Below are positions 1 to 10,620 of a stretch of 37,193 nucleotides of DNA, one piece after another. Origin of the DNA: Clostridia bacterium. GTDB taxonomy: Bacteria > Bacillota > Clostridia > Oscillospirales > CAG-272. The stretch covers positions 1 to 37,193 of the forward strand of contig JAFTQL010000024.1 in assembly GCA_017462795.1 (NCBI GenBank), in the 5' to 3' direction. Made by a program: the position numbers and the translations under genes. The notes below the pieces were generated by a model. The model had not been told where the DNA came from and searched no databases. It was given only the letters and a program-made list of their open reading frames with translations. Position 1 is the stretch's first letter; every line of letters begins with the position of its first letter.

Positions 1-2013
1 AGCGCCGTCGAGAGGACCGATGGTCATAGCACCGTTGATCATAAGCTTCAGACCGCCCGTACCGCTTGCTTCCTTACCCGCACGAGATATCTGCTCGGAG
101 AGCTCTGCCGCGGGAACAAGCGACTCTGCCATGCTTACGTTGTAGTTCTCAAGGAATACAACAGCCAGCTTTTCTCTTACAACGGGATCGTTTTCGATCT
201 CCTTGCCAAGACAGCAGATAAGCTTGATGATATTCTTCGCCATATAATAGCCGGGAGCAGCCTTTGCCGCAAACAGGAAGGTCTGAGGCTGGAACTCCTT
301 GTTGGGATTGTCCTTGATATCCAGGTACAGACCGATGATATTGAGAACATTGAGAAGCTGTCTCTTGTACTCATGCAGTCTCTTGATATGCACATCGTAG
401 AAGGAGTGCGTATCTATTGCTCTGCCTGTCTGCTTGTAAACGCGCTCGGCGAACGCGATCTTGTTGTTGTGCTTGATAGCTCTCATCTGTGCGAGAACAT
501 CGGAGTCGTTTACAAACTTAGCGAAGTTCGCAAGCTCCTCGGGATTGTGTCTGTAGCCCGTACCGATAGTATTATCCAGCAGATCCGCAAGCTTGGGGTT
601 GGAGTAGCACAGCCAACGGCGGTGCGCTATACCGTTCGTCACATTGCAGAAGCGGTCGGGATACATTGCGTAGAAGTCCTTGAATATGGACTTTGTGAGA
701 ATATCGGAATGGAGCTTGGACACACCGTTTACGGAGTGACATCCCACCGCGCAAAGGTTTGCCATGCGGACCTGACCATAGCTTACAATACTCATCTTGG
801 AAATTCTGTTCCAGTTTCCTGGGAAGGACTTCCATGCGTCGCGGCAGAATCTCTCATTGATCTCGGCGATAATGTTATAGATCCTGGGGAGCTTGAGGCG
901 GAAGAGATCCTCATTCCAGGTTTCAAGAGCCTCAGGCATAACGGTGTGGTTTGTATAAGAGCAGATCTTTACGACCATATCCCATGCCTTATCCCATGAG
1001 TAGAAGTACTCGTCAATGAGTATTCTCATAAGCTCGGGGATACAGAGAGCGGGATGAGTGTCATTGATGTGGATAGCTACCTTGTCGGGCAGGTTCTCAA
1101 GTGTTCCGTAAACAGCCATGTGGTCACGGATGATGCTCTGGCAGGACGCGGATACCATGAAGTACTGCTGAGAGAGTCTGAGCAGCTTACCCTCGATATG
1201 GTTATCGGAGGGATAAAGTACCTTGGAGATGATCTCCGCGTTGGTGCTTTCCTCAACTGCCTTTGTATACTGACCCTGTGTAAACAGCTTCATGTTAAAG
1301 TTATTGATATCTCTTGCCTTCCACAAACGGAGCTGGCTGACAGCCTTACTGTCAGATCCCGAGATCATCATGTCATAAGGAACAGCCTCGATCTCCTCGC
1401 AGTTTTCATAAATGATCTCGCAGTGTCCGTCCTTCCATTCTTCTCTGACATGACCGCCCATCTTTACCTTAAATATTCTGTCGGTTCTGGGAACAAGCCA
1501 TACCTCGCCTCCGGGAAGCCAGATATCGGGAAGCTCTACCTGCATTCCGTCAACGATCATCTGCTTGAAAAATCCGTAGTCATAGCAGATGGAAAATCCT
1601 GTTGCGGGATAGTCGAGAGATGACAGAGAGTCCATAAAGCAAGCGGCAAGTCTTCCCAAGCCTCCGTTGCCAAGACCCGCGTCGGGCTCGCACTCATAGA
1701 TATCGTCAAGTGTGAAGCCGAACTGTGCAAGTGCATCCTCGTATTCCTTGGACATTCCAAGGTTGCAAATACCCGTTTTCAGAGGGCGTCCGAGCAAAAA
1801 CTCGATGCACATGTAATAAACGCGCTTTGAGCCCTTTTCGTTGACCTCGTGCTTAAAGTCTCCTCTCTTCTCCGTGAGGATGTCCTTAACTGTCATTGCG
1901 ACAGCCTTGTACATCTGATCGCGTGTAGCCTCCTTGGGGTTACATCCGAAGTATCTGGAGAGCTTCGCCTCAATATTTTCTTTTACCTGTTTCTTTTGTG
2001 TCTGGTTCGCCAT
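1..2013 (-). CDS. glgP: Glycogen phosphorylase, C-terminus cut by window edge
   Basis: This enzyme phosphorolyses alpha-1,4-glucan to glucose-1-phosphate in the cytoplasm. The reading frame is open from an ATG at 2013 to base 1 (671 codons) and continues outside the window. Family landmarks are the glycine-rich GLGNGGLGRLAACF segment near residue 110, HINDTHPAL in the middle, KRLHEYKRQLLN in the C-terminal half, and the PLP-lysine region EASGTGGLK just before the edge. Usual family length is about 750-850 residues, so the missing part is short. The PLP region reads GGLK where most members have GNMK; the lysine itself is kept. A weak AGGAAA lies about 8 bases before the ATG. It is the last gene of the glg cluster, 54 bases after glgA, and would supply glucose-1-phosphate when reserves are used. 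Confidence 0.95.
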   Translation of the reverse strand, partial: MANQTQKKQVKENIEAKLSRYFGCNPKEATRDQMYKAVAMTVKDILTEKRGDFKHEVNEKGSKRVYYMCIEFLLGRPLKTGICNLGMSKEYEDALAQFGFTLDDIYECEPDAGLGNGGLGRLAACFMDSLSSLDYPATGFSICYDYGFFKQMIVDGMQVELPDIWLPGGEVWLVPRTDRIFKVKMGGHVREEWKDGHCEIIYENCEEIEAVPYDMMISGSDSKAVSQLRLWKARDINNFNMKLFTQGQYTKAVEESTNAEIISKVLYPSDNHIEGKLLRLSQQYFMVSASCQSIIRDHMAVYGTLENLPDKVAIHINDTHPALCIPELMRILIDEYFYSWDKAWDMVVKICSYTNHTVMPEALETWNEDLFRLKLPRIYNIIAEINERFCRDAWKSFPGNWNRISKMSIVSYGQVRMANLCAVGCHSVNGVSKLHSDILTKSIFKDFYAMYPDRFCNVTNGIAHRRWLCYSNPKLADLLDNTIGTGYRHNPEELANFAKFVNDSDVLAQMRAIKHNNKIAFAERVYKQTGRAIDTHSFYDVHIKRLHEYKRQLLNVLNIIGLYLDIKDNPNKEFQPQTFLFAAKAAPGYYMAKNIIKLICCLGKEIENDPVVREKLAVVFLENYNVSMAESLVPAAELSEQISRAGKEASGTGGLKLMINGAMTIGPLDGA

Positions 2014-2067: not shown

Positions 2068-3507
2068 TTATAATGTTTCGTACATTTCTATATATTTTAT
2101 TGCCGAATTTTTCAAAGAGAAGTCCGTTCTCATGATCTTACCCACAAGCTTGCCTCTCTTCTCGGTATCGTTCCACAGAGCGATAGCCGCCTGTGTTCTT
2201 TCCTTAAGCTCGTAGGAGCTGTAGTTAGCAAAGGTAAATCCATTGCCGTGGATCTTTCCGTTGCCGTCCTCCCAGTAGCCCTTGATGGAGTCATAAAGAC
2301 CGCCTGTCTCTCTTGTTACGGGTATAACTCCGTATCTGGAGGCGATCATCTGCGACAGTCCGCAAGGCTCGCTCTTGGAGGGCATGAGGAATATGTCGGA
2401 CGCTGCATAGATACGCTTTGCAAGATCTCTGTCGTATGTCATAAGAGCCTTGACTCTGCCCTCGTAATTTCTCTCAAGCTCTGTGAAGAATCTCTCATAA
2501 GCGGGTTCGCCCTTGCCGAGTATCACAAGCTGACAGTCGCTTTCGTCAAGCAGGCTGTATATCATCTCGGAGATGATATCCATTCCCTTATGAGCCGCAA
2601 GTCTCGAAACTATGGATATAAGGGGGATGTCATTTGTTACGGGCAAGCCCACCTCTTCCTGAAGCGCCGCTTTATTCTTGTATTTTCCGTCAAGAGTACG
2701 CCATGTAAACTTATTCGCAATAGTCTCGTCCTTGGCGGGGTTATAGTAAACGTAATCGATACCGTTGAGTATTCCGCAAAGCTTGTAGGAGCTTTCCCAA
2801 AGTATTCTTCCGAGACCGTGAGAATGCTCATAGCCCTGTATCTCCTCCGCGTATCTGGGGCTTACCGTGGTGACCTTATCGGCGCAAACTATAGCACCCT
2901 TCATAAGGTTGATGCATCCGTCCCAATCAACCACCTCTCGCCACCAATCAAGCTCGAATACGTCGCAAAGGATGTCGTGATCGTATTTGCCCTGATATTC
3001 GATATTATGAATGGTAAACGCCGTTTTTATTCCCGAATAACCGGGGCGCGAGGAATATTTACACTTGAGATAGATTATGCTGAGCGCCGCCTGCCAGTCA
3101 TGAGCATGCACGATATCGGGGAAATAATCCAGCTTATCAAGCATTTCAAGCGCCGCCTTGGAGAAGAAAGCGTATCTCTCTCCGTCGTCAAAATTACCGT
3201 AAAGCGTATTGCGGTTGAAATAATACTCATTATCTATGAAGTAGTAGGTGACTCCGTCCTTGACAAGGCTCTTGATACCGCAATACTGAGTTCTCCAGCC
3301 AAGTCCGATCTGGAACTCGACCTCTGTCTTCATCATGTCTCTGTACTGCTGAGTTACCGCTCTGTAAAGGGGCATTACCACACGGACGTCCACCTCGCCC
3401 TTACCTGCCTCCGCTATTGCCGCGGGCAGAGAGCCGAGCACATCGCCAAGTCCGCCTGTAGCGGCAAACGGCATTGCCTCAGCGCCTATAAATAATATCT
3501 TCTTCAT
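2068..3507 (-). CDS. glgA: Glycogen synthase (ADP-glucose type, GT5)
   Basis: It transfers glucose from ADP-glucose to the non-reducing end of alpha-1,4-glucan. The N-terminal MKKILFIGAEAMPF and the glycine loop TGGLGDVLGSLP are the GT5 signature. The C-terminal GT-B half shows ISIVSRLAAHKGMD and the donor-site segment PSKSEPCGLSQMIASRYG followed by RETGGL. The length of 479 residues is normal for the family. I chose the ATG at 3507 because GGAG lies about six bases upstream and the protein then begins at the conserved MKK; an in-frame extension to 3570 adds 21 residues unlike the family. The position that is lysine in the E. coli KTGGL motif is alanine here. It follows glgD by about 100 bases and precedes glgP. 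Confidence 0.96.
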   Translation of the reverse strand: MKKILFIGAEAMPFAATGGLGDVLGSLPAAIAEAGKGEVDVRVVMPLYRAVTQQYRDMMKTEVEFQIGLGWRTQYCGIKSLVKDGVTYYFIDNEYYFNRNTLYGNFDDGERYAFFSKAALEMLDKLDYFPDIVHAHDWQAALSIIYLKCKYSSRPGYSGIKTAFTIHNIEYQGKYDHDILCDVFELDWWREVVDWDGCINLMKGAIVCADKVTTVSPRYAEEIQGYEHSHGLGRILWESSYKLCGILNGIDYVYYNPAKDETIANKFTWRTLDGKYKNKAALQEEVGLPVTNDIPLISIVSRLAAHKGMDIISEMIYSLLDESDCQLVILGKGEPAYERFFTELERNYEGRVKALMTYDRDLAKRIYAASDIFLMPSKSEPCGLSQMIASRYGVIPVTRETGGLYDSIKGYWEDGNGKIHGNGFTFANYSSYELKERTQAAIALWNDTEKRGKLVGKIMRTDFSLKNSAIKYIEMYETL

Positions 3508-3607
3508 TTTACTCTCCTTTCTCTGAAAACCGATCTGTGGGACTGCTGCACCGACATACACCGAACGCAACAGTCCCGCATACTTATCTAAGCTGTTTTA
3601 TACTGCC

Positions 3608-4738
3608 TTATACCATAGCACCCTTGGGGATAAAGAAGGGCATGGAGCTGTGACCGGAAAGCATTCTTCCGTCGCAAATAACGGCGTTCTTATCCGTGAT
3701 CACGCAGTTGAGAGATACGTTGTTACCCGTGAAGGTGTCCTGAAGAAGCACACAGTTCCTGACCACTGTTCCCTTTCCTATACGAACACCTCTGAAGAGA
3801 ACGCAGTTCTCAACAGTTCCCTCGATAACGCAACCGTCGGCAACATAGGAGTTGATCACCTTTGAGCCTGCGGAGTAGCGGGTGGGAGCAGAGTTGCGGA
3901 GCTTTGTGTAGATGGGCATGTTGTCCACATTGAACAGCTCTGCGCGAACGGTGGGATCAAGAAGCTTCATGGAGCTTGAGAAATAACTCTCAAGAGAGCT
4001 TATGTGAATAAATGTTTTCTCATAGAGGTAGCTGAATATTCTCGCTCTTCCTATACGGCGGGAGACAAGATCCTTGAAGAAATGTCTGTAGCCGTGAGCG
4101 GCGGCATCGCGAAGCGCGCCGAGCAGGAACATTCTGTTTACTACCATAATATTCGTACTTACCTCACTGCCGGTAATGCCCTTGGCATAAGCGGAAGCAT
4201 CGGTAACCACTCCGCTCTCATCGGAGGCGATTGCGGTAATGTCCTTTATATCGGCCTCGGAGGGAGACAGACGTCTTGTAACGATGGTAAGATCGGCATT
4301 TCTTTCGATATGCGAGTCGATGACCTCGGACAGGTCTATGTTACAGATACCGTCGCAGTCGGAAATAACGAGGTATTCCTCATTACATCTGGAAATGAAG
4401 TGGGTGACACCCATCAGCGCCTCAAGTCTTGTTGTGTAGAGCTTTGCGCCGCCTGTGCTTTCATATGCGGTAATAAAGGGAGGAAGGATCTTGATACCGC
4501 CGGAGCGTCTTGCCAGATCCCAGTCCTTACCCGTACCTATGTGATCCATAAGGGACTGATAATTATTGTGAGCGACGATTCCGATCTTTGTGATACCGGA
4601 GTTTACCATGTTGGAAAGTGGGAAGTCGATAAGGCGGTAACGGCAACCGAAGGGTACGGACGCCATTGTTCTCACCGTTGTCATCTCGGGAATGGATGAA
4701 TCGTGAATGTTAGAAAAGATAAGTCCTGCTACTGCCAT
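3608..4738 (-). CDS. glgD: Glucose-1-phosphate adenylyltransferase subunit GlgD
   Basis: This is the second, non-canonical subunit of Firmicutes ADP-glucose pyrophosphorylase. It is 376 residues long and aligns with GlgC along its length: PFGCRYRLIDFPLSNMVNSGI near residue 30 and WDLARRSGGIKILPP near 75. The nucleotide-binding AGGxGxRL loop of GlgC is replaced by IFSNIHDSSIPEMT, as is typical for GlgD, and the GDH motif is altered (ISDCDG). The C-terminal third is a left-handed beta-helix with hexapeptide-like repeats. In the family GlgD has little catalysis alone and modulates GlgC; that role is inferred here. The start at 4738 is one base after the glgC stop, and AGGAGG lies within the last glgC codons, so the two are probably translationally coupled. 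Confidence 0.96.
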   Translation of the reverse strand: MAVAGLIFSNIHDSSIPEMTTVRTMASVPFGCRYRLIDFPLSNMVNSGITKIGIVAHNNYQSLMDHIGTGKDWDLARRSGGIKILPPFITAYESTGGAKLYTTRLEALMGVTHFISRCNEEYLVISDCDGICNIDLSEVIDSHIERNADLTIVTRRLSPSEADIKDITAIASDESGVVTDASAYAKGITGSEVSTNIMVVNRMFLLGALRDAAAHGYRHFFKDLVSRRIGRARIFSYLYEKTFIHISSLESYFSSSMKLLDPTVRAELFNVDNMPIYTKLRNSAPTRYSAGSKVINSYVADGCVIEGTVENCVLFRGVRIGKGTVVRNCVLLQDTFTGNNVSLNCVITDKNAVICDGRMLSGHSSMPFFIPKGAMV

Positions 4739-4739
4739 A

Positions 4740-5948
4740 TTACTTGCCCTCCTTGTTCAAATCAGACGCCTTGGAGATCATAGCTCCCGCGCCCACAACA
4801 GTACCGTCGGGTACTTTTATGTTTGCGCCTATAACGCAAATATCCTTTGCCGTCTCGCGGCACTCGCCGATCTTACAATCCTTGCCGACAGATGAGCCGC
4901 CGTCAATAATAGAATAGTTGATCTCCGCTCCGCTCTCGATAACAACGTCCTCGAGAATTACCGAATCGATAACGGAAGCGCCCTGCATGATCTTGACGCC
5001 CGCGCCGATAACAGAGTTACGGACAGTTCCGAATATCTCACAGCCCTCGGTGATGGAGCAGTTTTCTATGACCGCGCTCTCGCCTACAAACTGAGGAGCG
5101 TGAGCCTCATGTCTTGAATATATTCTCCATTCCTCATCGTCAAGATTGAGAACGGGATTTTCTCCGAGAAGATCCATATTTGCCTCCCACAGAGAGGAAA
5201 TAGTTCCTACGTCCTTCCAATAGCCCGAGAAGGGATACGCAAACATCTTCTCTCCTGCCGCAAGCATATTGGGAATAATATTTTTACCGAAGTCGTTGGA
5301 GCTGCTCGGATCCTCGGCATCGGCACAGAGATACTCCGCAAGCTTCTTCTTGGTGAAGATGTAGATACCCATGGATGCCTTGGTGCTGTCGGGATTCTTG
5401 GGCTTCTCGGTAAACTTGAAGATCTTGCCCTCATCATCAACACTGAGTATACCGAAGCGGCTTGCCTCTTCTATCGGAACGTCAATAACGGCGATAGTGC
5501 AGTCCGCACCTGTTTTCTTATGATGATCCAGCATCTTGTCGTAGTCCATCTTGTAGATGTGGTCGCCCGAAAGTATCAGAACATACTCGGGATCATATCT
5601 GTCAATGAACTGTAGATTCTGATAAATAGCGTTTGCCGTGCCCTTGTACCAGTCCGCGCCGTTCTTACCCTGATAGGGAGGCAGGATCTTTACTCCGCCC
5701 CAGGCTCTGTCAAGGTCCCAAGGAAGTCCGTTTCCGATATATTCATTGAGCATCAGGGGCTGATACTGTGTCAGAACACCGACCGTATCGATTCCCGAAT
5801 TTACGCAGTTTGACAGCGTAAAGTCAATGATCCTGTACTTTCCTCCAAAAGGTACCGCGGGTTTGGCATTTGTCTCCGTAAGGGCATACAGACGGCTTCC
5901 CTGTCCGCCTGCAAGCAACATGGCAACGCATTCTTTGTTCCTGAACAT
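4740..5948 (-). CDS. glgC: Glucose-1-phosphate adenylyltransferase, catalytic subunit
   Basis: It makes ADP-glucose and pyrophosphate from glucose-1-phosphate and ATP, the committed step of bacterial glycogen synthesis. The 402-residue protein begins with the intact nucleotide loop [10 protein letters not shown] at residues 10-19, then [15 protein letters not shown], the substrate region [12 protein letters not shown], and [12 protein letters not shown] with the catalytic aspartate. A C-terminal left-handed beta-helix follows. GGAGG lies five bases before the ATG. The stop at 4740 nearly abuts glgD. Sitting between glgB and glgD, it is probably transcribed with both. Confidence 0.97.
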
Positions 5949-5983: not shown

Positions 5984-7789
5984 TTACTTTGTCTTGGACG
6001 CTATAGAAGTCTTACGCTTGGATTGTGTCCTCCTGACACACTTGAGGATGCTTACAGCCAATGGCGGTACTCTCATTACTATTGAATTTTCCTGACAATC
6101 CGATGACCTTGTCTCACTTGGGAGAGCCGATGCGTTCACAACACCGCTTCCTCCGTAGCGACCGTCATCCGAATTGAACATTTCGCGGTATTCCCCACCG
6201 CAAGGCACTCCCAATCTGTAATTTTCATACGCCACGGGTGTGAAATTTATAACAATTATTACTTCCTCGCCGTTGCTGTCGCTACGGCAATAGGAAACAA
6301 TACCTTGTTCTTTGTGATTTTTGTCGGGCTCAAGCCATGAAAAGCCGTCCCGTAAACTGTCTGCCTGCCAGAGCGCGGGGGTTCTCAGATAAAGCTGACC
6401 GAGATCCGACACATATCTTTGCAGTTCCGCGTGAGAGTCATAGTCGAGCAAAAACCATTCGACGGGACTCTCTCCGTCCCATTCCTTGAACTGACCTATC
6501 TCACTACCCATAAAGGTCAGCTTCTTCCCCGGGAACGTCATCATATACCCTAAAAAGGCGCGGGTGCTCGCAAACTTCTGCCAATAGTCTCCCGACATTT
6601 TGTCAAGAAACGTCTTATTCCCGCATGTCAATCGATCATGGGAAAGCGGCAGAACATATTTTCCGCTCGGCGCGGTATTAAAGGACGCTCTCTGTTTATC
6701 AATATGATAGCTTCTGAACTCGGGAGCGGTCTCGGCGCGCTCAAAGGCATCCGCCGCCCAATCTCCGTCAAAGCACATATCAAACAGCTCACAGCCGTCT
6801 GTCGCGCTCCTTGAGATCAGCAACACATCGGAATACTCGCGCCGCAGACACTCCGCAAGCTCCCGTTTAAATCCTGCAGACTCAGCTCCCACATCTCCGA
6901 TACACAGTCCGTCGATGTGATATCTGTCAAGCCAGAAGCAGGCGTTTGACAGCAGAAACGATCTTACCTCTCTGCGATCAAGATCGAACTCCCCATCGGA
7001 GCTACCGTCCGTTTTTTCATACAGGGGTTGTCCGTCAAAGTCGCAAAGGGCACTTTCGCTCCTGCCAACTCCCGTGGGAGTCCAATCCAGCAGAACGCCT
7101 ATTCCCGCCTCGTGCATGGAGTCCACAAACGCCATGAAGTCGTTAGGCGATCCAAGACGTGCTGAGGGAGCGAAATACGAGCTTGCCTCATAACCGCGCC
7201 CGTCCTTATCACAGCTCTCCCAAATCGGCAGAAGCTGTACATGCGTATATCCCATCTGCTTGACGTAAGGAGCAAGCTCCCGCGCGATATCCCTGTAATT
7301 CATAGCGCTTCCGTCATCACGTCTGCGCCATGTGGGAAGATGGATCTCATACGCATTAAACGGCTCGCCGCAGCTTTTTCCCGCCTTGCCGCTTCTGTAG
7401 GCAAGCCAACCTTCATCCCTCCACTTATACTCGCCAAGGTCGCAAACGACCGAGGCAGTATCGGGAGGGCATTGCGAGGCGAAGGCGAAGGGATCCGCCT
7501 TATACACCGTTCTGTCGCTGTTAACTATTCTGAATTTGTAAATACCGCCGTTTTGTATCCTGTCTCCGACCGCGGAGCATTCCCAGATACCGCCATCGGT
7601 AACCTGATACATGGGGATCCCCTCCTGCCAGTCGCAGAAGTCTCCCACCGCGAAAACGCGTGTGGCATTGGGTGCCCATACTCTGAAGACATATCCGTCG
7701 GGGAGGCGGTGACAGCCAAGGTACTCATAGCCCCGGCAATCAGTCCCCCCGTGGAGAAGATACTCGGCTGATGCTGACTGTAACCTCAT
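5984..7789 (-). CDS. glgB: Divergent GlgB-like branching-enzyme homologue lacking catalytic residues (probable pseudoenzyme)
   Basis: The fold is that of a 1,4-alpha-glucan branching enzyme. A CBM48-type N-terminal domain (FRVWAPNATRVFAVGDFCDW, near residues 37-56) precedes a GH13 barrel and an all-beta C-terminal domain. Several stretches are clearly GlgB: YEIHLPTWRR, LPLSHD, MSGDYWQKFA, FPGKKLTFMGSEIGQF. The active site is degenerate. The nucleophile segment expected as DGLRVDAV reads DGLCIGDV, putting glycine (about residue 300) at the nucleophile position. The acid/base segment AEES reads ISRS (about 328). The region I histidine is missing (DWTPTGVG). Only the third acidic residue, in LPLSHD (about 387), is kept. 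About 25 residues are lost between the first two sites. At 601-603 residues it is shorter than E. coli GlgB. A GTG at 7795 is an alternative start; the ATG at 7789 fits the AAAGGA spacing as well or better. It lies 36 bases before glgC. Confidence 0.88.
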   Translation of the reverse strand: MRLQSASAEYLLHGGTDCRGYEYLGCHRLPDGYVFRVWAPNATRVFAVGDFCDWQEGIPMYQVTDGGIWECSAVGDRIQNGGIYKFRIVNSDRTVYKADPFAFASQCPPDTASVVCDLGEYKWRDEGWLAYRSGKAGKSCGEPFNAYEIHLPTWRRRDDGSAMNYRDIARELAPYVKQMGYTHVQLLPIWESCDKDGRGYEASSYFAPSARLGSPNDFMAFVDSMHEAGIGVLLDWTPTGVGRSESALCDFDGQPLYEKTDGSSDGEFDLDRREVRSFLLSNACFWLDRYHIDGLCIGDVGAESAGFKRELAECLRREYSDVLLISRSATDGCELFDMCFDGDWAADAFERAETAPEFRSYHIDKQRASFNTAPSGKYVLPLSHDRLTCGNKTFLDKMSGDYWQKFASTRAFLGYMMTFPGKKLTFMGSEIGQFKEWDGESPVEWFLLDYDSHAELQRYVSDLGQLYLRTPALWQADSLRDGFSWLEPDKNHKEQGIVSYCRSDSNGEEVIIVINFTPVAYENYRLGVPCGGEYREMFNSDDGRYGGSGVVNASALPSETRSSDCQENSIVMRVPPLAVSILKCVRRTQSKRKTSIASKTK

Positions 7790-7838
7790 TGCCACGGCTT
7801 CCTTTCTTTATACTTCTGATCTGAAAAGATCGCAGGAC

Positions 7839-8141
7839 TCAATCAAGCTCCGTGTGATAAATGATCTCGTCCGGGAAGCACATACCCAGCTTTTCTCTCG
7901 CGATACGTATTTTATAGGCATCGTCCAGAGGCGCTTCAACAAGATATTCAAGCTTGTCGATATCATCCTCCAGCTGAAGTATGTAATCCTCCTTCTCCTC
8001 CTTGTCCTCCATGATCTCGTTATACCGCATAACGCTCCAGAGGAAGAAGGCGACAGCAAAAAGCAGGAGAAGCAACAAAAACGCGCGTATCGCTATAGAC
8101 ACTGCCGATTTTTTATCGGCGAAATATTTGCTCGACGCCAT
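7839..8141 (-). CDS. divIC: Septum formation initiator family protein (DivIC/FtsB-like)
   Basis: This is a bitopic membrane protein of the divisome, 100 residues long. A basic cytoplasmic N-terminus is followed by one transmembrane helix (about residues 18-38, rich in Leu/Phe/Ala). An extracytoplasmic coiled coil (EDKEEKEDYILQLEDDIDKLE) and the family's C-terminal IAREKLGMCFPDEIIYH block complete it. FtsB/DivIC proteins bridge FtsL and other divisome components; the role here is inferred from family and position. AGGAGG lies about nine bases before the ATG. It follows yabQ by 24 bases, matching the yabP-yabQ-divIC order of Bacillus subtilis. A short hairpin (7818-7831) lies between its stop and glgB. 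Confidence 0.9.
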   Translation of the reverse strand: MASSKYFADKKSAVSIAIRAFLLLLLLFAVAFFLWSVMRYNEIMEDKEEKEDYILQLEDDIDKLEYLVEAPLDDAYKIRIAREKLGMCFPDEIIYHTELD

Positions 8142-9766: not shown

Positions 9767-10579
9767 TTATATTTTTTTATGTTTAATTTCGTCCCAAACC
9801 GCGTCAAGCTCGGTCATTGACATGGAATTTATGTCTCCGCCGCGCGAAATAACAGCATTCTCGAGGGTAGAAAACCTGTTTATAAACTTATCCGTAGCCT
9901 TGTTCAGCGCCACCTCGGGCTCAACGCCGAGCTTTCTGCAAAGAGACGTGATGGTGAGCAGAAGGTCACCAAGCTCCTCTTCGATCTGCGAGCGCTCTCC
10001 GCTCTGCACCGCCTCGCTTACCTCACAAAGCTCCTCACATACCTTATCCATAACCTGCTGATCGTTCTCAAAGTCAAAGCATGCGGCCTTCTTGCCCACC
10101 TTCTCCGCTCTCATAAGGGCAGGAAGCATAGGTGGAATGGCGCGCAGCTTATCGCTGACGGTGCGTCTTTCCTTCTCATCGCTCTTTATCTTCTCCCAAT
10201 TTGAAAGCACCTTGTCGCTGGTCTCGGCAACAACGTCGCCAAACACATGGGGATGGCGATGGATAAGCTTTACGCATATATCGTTTGCCACATCGTCTAT
10301 ATCAAATCTGCCCTCCTCGGTCTCGATACGGGCGTGAAAGACCACCTGCAGCATTACGTCGCCAAGCTCCTCCCTGAGAAGCTCGGGATCATCCGTATCT
10401 ATTGCCTCGATGACCTCATATGTCTCCTCGATAAAGTCCTTGCGTATGCTCTTATGATCCTGCTCTCTGTCCCAAGGACAGCCGATATCCGAGCGAAGCA
10501 CCTCCACGACTGTAACAAGGTCATCAAAGGTATATTTATCCTTTTCAAGTAATGATCTGATCTTATCTTCCGCTGTCAT
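9767..10579 (-). CDS. mazG: Nucleoside triphosphate pyrophosphohydrolase MazG
   Basis: It hydrolyses nucleoside triphosphates to monophosphates and pyrophosphate, clearing non-canonical or excess nucleotides. The 270-residue protein has the two tandem MazG domains. The first carries LRSDIGCPWDREQDHKSIRKDFIEE and the metal-binding EELGDVMLQVVFHA. The second carries CEELCEVSEAV and EEELGDLLLTITSLCRKLG. The HRHPHVFGD motif lies between them. AAGGAG lies about six bases before the ATG. It sits between the spoVB-like gene and hup, equivalent to yabN in B. subtilis (where a methyltransferase domain is fused at the N-terminus; none is present here). Confidence 0.95.
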   Translation of the reverse strand: MTAEDKIRSLLEKDKYTFDDLVTVVEVLRSDIGCPWDREQDHKSIRKDFIEETYEVIEAIDTDDPELLREELGDVMLQVVFHARIETEEGRFDIDDVANDICVKLIHRHPHVFGDVVAETSDKVLSNWEKIKSDEKERRTVSDKLRAIPPMLPALMRAEKVGKKAACFDFENDQQVMDKVCEELCEVSEAVQSGERSQIEEELGDLLLTITSLCRKLGVEPEVALNKATDKFINRFSTLENAVISRGGDINSMSMTELDAVWDEIKHKKI

Positions 10580-10620
10580 GTTTTTCTCCTTTGTTTTCTA
10601 TATTATTAATATATTAAACA

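Follow-up and report, generated by a model that had tools for sequence, protein, structure and literature searches.

The first gene of the glg operon described here encodes an ortholog of the bacterial branching enzyme GlgB which, to judge from its residues, is a pseudo-branching enzyme, i.e. a homolog without the residues needed for catalysis. The reading that we favour, and consider probable, is that a eukaryote-type branching enzyme (GH13_8) took over its reaction, while GlgB itself persisted without catalysis, probably as a protein that binds glucan.

Gene organization and domain structure

The window, i.e. the whole stretch of DNA that was analysed, is an entire contig (C58) of 37,193 bases from a draft genome (G000; 1.55 Mb, 62 contigs, 55% complete). 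Its minus strand carries glgB, glgC, glgD, glgA and most of glgP (Table 1), the last four being named after the families that they presumably represent. In the loci of the genus, glgB is the first glg gene and precedes glgC. The sequence AAAGGAAG is found upstream of the glgB ATG at 7789. Just upstream of glgB lies an ORF of 100 aa (positions 7842-8141, minus strand) with a long hydrophobic stretch and a presumed likeness to small cell-division proteins. The glgP gene is split between positions 1-2013 of the window and 10089-10580 of locus L085, on contig C10 of the same genome; the end of C10 holds the rest of glgP followed by a GH13 gene of another kind, an order that agrees with that in relatives. 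This split makes it very likely that the two contigs are neighbours, and that the glg operon runs on into the other GH13 gene on C10.

Table 1. Position of the glg genes and of the GlgB features in the window
Feature	Position	Strand	Remarks
glgB ortholog, broken GH13 active site	5984..7795	-	603 aa from GTG; alternative ATG start 7789
glgC, ADP-glucose pyrophosphorylase	4740..5948	-	35 bp downstream of glgB; own GGAGG ribosome-binding site
glgD, GlgC paralog	3608..4738	-	about 30% identical to GlgC
glgA, glycogen synthase	2068..3570	-	
glgP, glycogen phosphorylase	1..2013	-	cut by contig end; remainder on C10 of G000
GlgB, CBM48 domain, residues 26-104	7484..7720	-	N-terminal part keeps almost every site invariant in intact proteins
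GlgB, region I DWTPTGVG, residues 237-244	7064..7087	-	DWVPAHF to DWTPTGV; His to Gly242
GlgB, region II HIDGLCIGDV, residues 293-302	6890..6919	-	DGLRVDAV to DGLCIGDV; Arg to Cys298, nucleophile Asp to Gly300
GlgB, 24-aa deletion site, residues 304/305	6881..6886	-	loop behind region II
GlgB, region III LLISRSATD, residues 325-333	6797..6823	-	IAEES to ISRSA; acid/base Glu to Arg329
GlgB, region IV LPLSHDR, residues 382-388	6632..6652	-	SHDE to SHDR; His386 and Asp387 retained
GlgB, C-terminal all-beta domain (Alpha-amylase_C)	6038..6319	-	

The window protein is a GlgB (GH13_9) ortholog composed of a CBM48 domain, a GH13 barrel and a C-terminal all-beta domain, all of which score above the Pfam cut-offs. 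Curated equivalog profiles give a mixed picture, with a score above the cut-off for TIGR01515 (491.7 vs 463.95) and scores below it for PRK12313 (538.6 vs 577) and PRK05402 (530.3 vs 741). Branching enzymes in the PDB align to it as well, in pieces. An AlphaFold model displays the full GlgB fold (pLDDT 85.6, pTM 0.89); since the input alignment of 25 rows included intact relatives, the model demonstrates compatibility with this fold and is no proof of folding. The top match of the model in a Foldseek search is the Rhodothermus branching enzyme (TM 0.89), and E. coli GlgB follows with 0.86, within a range of 0.84-0.90 for bacterial branching enzymes.

The active site

Active-site positions were read from an alignment with the 15 intact orthologs of the genus, and this alignment bears out the original prediction that a GlgB homologue in the glycogen operon has lost its catalytic residues. 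The triad is represented by Gly300, Arg329 and Asp387, with Gly242 and Cys298 at two further sites, and the His-Asp pair of region IV alone survives. We take the equivalent residues of E. coli GlgB to be H340, R403, D405, E458, H525 and D526. The nucleophile had already been placed at Gly300, within the change of DGLRVDAV to DGLCIGDV, and the genus alignment gives the same placement; equally, region I proves to be without its His (now Gly242), and only the last triad residue, the D526 equivalent, is kept, as Asp387 and together with His386. The predicted loss of the acid/base Glu holds, but its position shifts by one residue from Ser328 to Arg329, Ser328 being the replacement of the Ala that precedes the acid/base position. 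Asp301, which had been considered for a catalytic position, falls one residue past that of the nucleophile.

Compared with the intact orthologs, the window protein has three deletions, of 7, 24 and 9 aa, all of which remove catalytic-face loops (as defined on the AlphaFold model), and the sole insertion in the aligned core is of 2 aa. An intact triad is present in 79 of the 119 aligned GlgB rows, and every one of these 79 also retains the region I His, the region II Arg and the region IV His; the change in the window protein therefore lies outside normal variation. Judged by these residues, the protein has almost certainly lost branching activity.

Broken GlgB proteins in the genus and family

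All 30 genomes of the genus examined were searched, and GlgC was found in 24 of them. The glgB slot of these 24 holds an intact gene in 15 genomes and a broken one in seven (G000, i.e. the window, G001, G004, G005, G008, G019 and G027), so that the expectation of further orthologs with broken sites before glgC is confirmed for the genus. The remaining two are G002 and G028, where the region upstream of glgC revealed no glgB, in G028 up to the end of its contig. In G002 (locus L083), glgC and glgD are the sole glg remnants, as glgB, glgA and glgP are missing; in G028 (L084, positions 1-698) a repeated block occupies the place where glgB should end before glgC, and no glgB is recognisable to the contig end.

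In a family sample of 395 genomes, 306 match GlgB at 1e-60, at least three of them through GH13_8 only. Three samples were drawn from outside the genus. The first consisted of the 37 weakest of the 306 matches, of which 25 were included, three (G091, G224, G232) are GH13_8 matches only, and nine, mostly contig-end pieces, were left out (G125, G144, G212, G220, G274, G291, G323, G341, G398). The second comprised 35 strong scorers selected ahead of the family-wide mapping of GH13_8 (34 intact, one broken, G402), and the third 24 rows picked for the presence of GH13_8 in the genome (13 intact, 11 broken). Three further family members found alongside the genus (G031, G032, G035) are intact, as are all eight rows from outside the family. 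Altogether 40 of the 119 aligned rows are broken, corresponding to 39 copies in 38 genomes, as RGIG6384 and G359 are the same copy and G132 contributes two. All three triad residues are missing in 18 of the broken rows, two in 17 and one in five. As rows were chosen by score and by GH13_8, the figure of 38 broken among 109 genomes is not a prevalence.

The broken copies differ in the domains that they have lost: G001 is without most of CBM48, G008 is without the C-terminal domain, and G272 and one of the G132 copies (G132b) are N-terminal halves, and therefore no single retained domain explains all copies. The two copies of G132 are different broken genes on two contigs (L179, L180), one full-length with 621 aa and the other an N-terminal half of 351 aa. 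In G303, G347 and G414 (L105, L110, L112) acids are found near all three sites, namely Glu in place of the nucleophile, Asp in place of the acid/base residue and a further Asp one residue past the stabiliser position, and it is conceivable that the active site has been rewired in this group.

Independent losses

A tree of GlgC, GlgD and GlgA (28 rows) places the eight broken rows at eight separate tips, and eight changes are forced by well-supported branches. In a larger family tree of 90 rows, obtained by a quick search with SH-aLRT support from two genes (GlgC and GlgD) that may recombine, and in which the placement of G126 and G424 is uncertain owing to few columns, the 36 broken rows require 21 changes, 18 of which are forced. 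Several broken copies are shared by clades of two to four species, i.e. G171/G250/G281/G302, G303/G347/G390, G359/G371/G402, G294/G327/G367 and G132b/G175. One ancient loss is ruled out by both trees. What had been seen as a single case thus belongs to a series of at least 18 independent losses on the GlgC and GlgD tree, and it has acquired a likely cause, namely a second branching enzyme. Between G359 and G371 (L036, L176), the synonymous difference is 0.12-0.14 for glgC and glgD, compared to 0.40 for glgA and 1.06 for glgB of the same operon, which hints at recombination of glgCD between these species.

A second branching enzyme

Eukaryote-type branching enzymes of the GH13_8 type were found in 12 of the 30 genus genomes and in 83 of the 395 family genomes, which are presumed from their matching identifiers to be those searched for GlgB. 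The one copy tested, from G008, matches human GBE1 at 5e-210. Catalytic residues (DGFRFDGV, AED, ESHDQ) are present in all 12 genus copies, in which they were read; some family copies are cut or, in G359, split. In G359 (C1:839-2817, L088) the GH13_8 matches form two adjacent pieces in separate frames, and the gene may be interrupted or mis-assembled; the GlgB of this genome is also broken.

The distribution of GH13_8 follows that of broken GlgB. It is present in 36 of 37 genomes with broken GlgB vs 20 of 71 with intact GlgB (Fisher 7e-13; reached in none of 100,000 within-genus shuffles), a count that omits the incomplete G000 and in which some rows had been picked because of GH13_8. Phylogenetic pairs comparing GH13_8 with broken GlgB gave 17 pairs, with 9.5 in the same direction, 0.1 opposite and 7.3 equal (median p 0.002), and with the rows picked via GH13_8 removed, 65 rows and 11 pairs gave 7.7 vs 0.0 (median p 0.008). 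Restricted to the genus, the pair test does not reach significance (5 pairs, 3.2 vs 0, median p 0.25). The exception among the broken genomes is G324, in which no GH13_8 match was found. Over the genus and family sets together, the 88 GH13_8 genomes comprise 20 with intact GlgB, 36 with broken GlgB and 32 in which GlgB was not found, and these 32 indicate that the pseudoenzyme is dispensable.

The possibility of a second glgB elsewhere in the window genome found no confirmation, as neither a second GlgB nor a GH13_8 or GH57 enzyme was found in the 55% of it that is available, which for GH13_8 makes a weak absence. A GH57 enzyme as branching substitute was thereby set aside for the available part of this genome. 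GH13_8 was likewise not found in its nearest relatives G009, G029 and G023.

Selection on broken copies

Each of the 39 broken copies has its GlgB match within one open frame, and none is split by a stop codon or frameshift, although two (G347, G414) reach a contig edge and several carry large in-frame deletions. At six loci there are further weak matches (about 17-21 bits), which cover an unspecific part of GH13 and fall in GH13-like frames separate from glgB. With glgC and glgD supplying the branch length, the window copy has an omega of 0.40 vs 0.036 in intact relatives, and omega equal to 1 and equal to background are both rejected. Neutrality of the excess replacement would predict 18.9 stops in this copy and between 10 and 26 per copy over the six lineages tested; the values of 0.40 and 18.9 rest on dS borrowed from glgC and glgD, and for G001, G004, G005 and G008 the borrowed dS is itself saturated and rough. 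The dS was taken from these genes because the window branch saturates when its length is left free (dS about 4.3); that fit is better than the fixed one, with an omega of 0.071 that does not differ from the background of 0.050, and again rejects 1.

Constraint on the window copy is uneven. Among sites invariant in 17 intact proteins, replacements affect 1 of 45 in the N- and C-terminal domains vs 44 of 117 in the barrel (Fisher 6e-7); those of the barrel divide into 28 of 56 sites in the catalytic-face loops and 16 of 61 elsewhere. The omega values follow the same order, with 0.705 for the catalytic-face loops, 0.383 for the rest of the barrel, 0.294 for the N-terminal and 0.197 for the C-terminal domain. 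The contrast between these domains and the barrel is also below 0.05 in G005, G004 and G008, and it is not significant in G027, RGIG6384, G001 and G019; in G019 erosion is almost even along the protein. Deletion sites were dropped as evidence for selection, since 24 of 44 events fall in catalytic-face loops (p 0.0008 against placement anywhere) but p is 0.47 against placement in any loop.

Changes after the loss can be followed in pairs of species with a common broken copy. Sixteen pairs were compared, five intact and 11 broken or eroded, and five of the 11, from three clades, were used. Their maximum likelihood omega is 0.100 (G359-G371), 0.123 (G303-G347), 0.222 (G303-G414), 0.151 (G347-G414) and 0.184 (G171-G250), in agreement with 0.10, 0.15, 0.22, 0.16 and 0.17 by a counting method. 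Four broken pairs at the dS bound were set aside (G303-G390, G347-G390, G059-G126, G281-G302; omega 0.048-0.067), and G132-G175 and G294-G327 gave no usable omega. The five intact pairs range over 0.042-0.098, so that by medians the broken copies are about twofold less constrained. These values imply that selection continues after loss of the triad in the three clades; in the window copy such selection is seen indirectly, through the uneven constraint. The original prediction of a frame that is intact and selected is upheld on three counts, namely the approximately 19 stops expected under neutrality, the uneven retention of invariant sites and the omega of 0.10-0.22 after the loss. The most constrained part in the after-loss pairs is the barrel core, with CBM48 less so, for which reason CBM48 alone is not claimed as the retained function.

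Possible role of the broken GlgB proteins

We propose that GH13_8 would make the alpha-1,6 branches in glycogen and so take over from GlgB, which would lift selection on GlgB catalysis. A second property of GlgB would still be selected, most likely that of holding alpha-glucan chains or Glg enzymes together, and this could run through CBM48, the outer barrel and the C-terminal domain. GlgB would then persist as a non-catalytic subunit of glycogen assembly until it is eroded or deleted. By analogy with ISA2, a plant protein discussed below, we infer that broken GlgB may bind glucan or Glg enzymes. The wider generalisation, in which a eukaryote-type enzyme repeatedly frees the operon GlgB to become a selected non-catalytic assembly protein, a bacterial counterpart of ISA2 with eighteen or more origins, is put forward tentatively and falls a little short of what we would call probable.

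The strongest competitor, which we nevertheless regard as unlikely, is plain decay, where a redundant GlgB is eroding, its open frames being a step on the way to loss and the apparent constraint a legacy of the time when it was functional. Many broken copies are indeed single tips of the tree, the 88 GH13_8 genomes form a graded series from intact (20) over broken (36) to no GlgB found (32), G019 is eroded almost evenly, and the lost domains differ among copies. Decay is hard to reconcile with one open frame in 39 of 39 copies where 10 to 26 stops per copy would be expected in the six tested (rough where dS is saturated), with the after-loss omega of 0.10-0.22 in five pairs from three clades, or with the 44 of 45 invariant sites that the window copy retains in its N- and C-terminal domains. 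A further explanation, improbable in our view, holds that the protein is idle and that translation through the leading gene of the operon is needed to protect glgC-glgD-glgA from premature termination of transcription, in which case only stops and frameshifts would be selected against. That glgB leads the glg genes, ahead of glgC, in the genus loci and that the indels preserve the frame would suit this explanation. It does not account for the non-uniform replacements along the window protein or the after-loss omega far below 1, and glgC, 35 bp downstream, is provided with a ribosome-binding site of its own, while G002 and, as far as its contig goes, G028 manage with no glgB seen before glgC. 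The evidence against these two explanations is not decisive, because of the 32 GH13_8 genomes in which GlgB was not found and the differing domain losses.

It is very improbable that the window protein has remained an active branching enzyme in which Asp301 and Asp387 or other acids carry out catalysis: the region IV His-Asp pair is retained, Asp301 adjoins the nucleophile position and the group of G303, G347 and G414 has acids near all three sites, but Arg329 occupies the acid/base position, the region I His, the region II Arg and three loops are gone, and other lineages carry many different replacements. An assembly or binning error is scarcely credible, even for a metagenome-assembled draft of 62 contigs and 55% completeness, given the long clean frame in a syntenic operon and the same kind of loss in many genomes, in some cases common to several species. 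A sequencing or frame error is ruled out, as many genomes are affected and none of the 39 broken copies is split.

Comparison with known systems

The pseudo-branching enzyme of the window shares domain order and place in the operon with the bacterial GlgB proteins of GH13_9 (E. coli 1m7x/4lq1, Rhodothermus 8zqa, Cyanothece 5gqu), with 34-36% identity over the model, and differs from them in lacking the nucleophile, the acid/base residue, the region I His, the region II Arg and three catalytic-face loops. Glycogen operons offer a parallel in GlgD, a paralog of GlgC that serves as a partner and not as the main catalyst; it belongs to another enzyme family than GlgB and co-occurs with intact and broken GlgB alike.

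Other branching enzymes that have lost their activity are known. For MKIP1, a plant class III branching enzyme (AtBE1), a loss of branching activity is reported, with retention of the CBM48 and amylase domains, the latter under constraint (PMC13172542). According to the same source, MKIP1 is part of a splicing complex in which an insertion of 150 aa binds the splicing factor MatK, and its class is of unclear origin (PMC13172542). The window GlgB, in contrast, is bacterial, stands in a glg operon, belongs to a series of many separate losses, and has no such 150-aa insertion, the only one in its aligned core being of 2 aa. The plant isoamylase ISA2 is presented as a conserved GH13 protein without a functional catalytic site, whose proposed mode of action is to form a complex with a partner and to engage glucan by its binding sites (PMC12510319). 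As described there, ISA2 belongs to the debranching family and has ISA1 as partner, whereas the window GlgB belongs to the branching family and its partner is putative only. In Waddlia, a GlgA-GlgB fusion is reported to have no detectable branching activity, with a second enzyme, GlgB2, being present (PMC7935935, PMC11046441); the inactivity is explained there by the GlgA domain to which GlgB is fused, and the pathway is a rearranged one (PMC7935935, PMC11046441). On that account, both cases involve a bacterial GlgB domain without branching beside a second branching enzyme, but here the catalytic residues are lost and the operon is otherwise normal.

In the accessible portions of the openly licensed full-text literature, we found no report of a GlgC operon whose GlgB has lost its catalytic residues. 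Dead branching enzymes are already known, but the same portions of the literature contained no case of bacteria in which the GlgB of an operon has been converted repeatedly and in place.

Implications

As the window protein passes TIGR01515 as a branching enzyme, statements on glycogen branching in gut bacteria of this kind can be mistaken when they rest on genome sequences. Plants are known to possess non-catalytic relatives of starch enzymes; in the related bacteria described here, copies that are intact, freshly broken, eroded or missing are found side by side. Together with a likely trigger, this series makes it testable whether and why cells keep a dead enzyme. If our reading of GlgB as a retained non-catalytic protein is true, these lineages would represent replicate experiments in the conversion of an enzyme into a scaffold.
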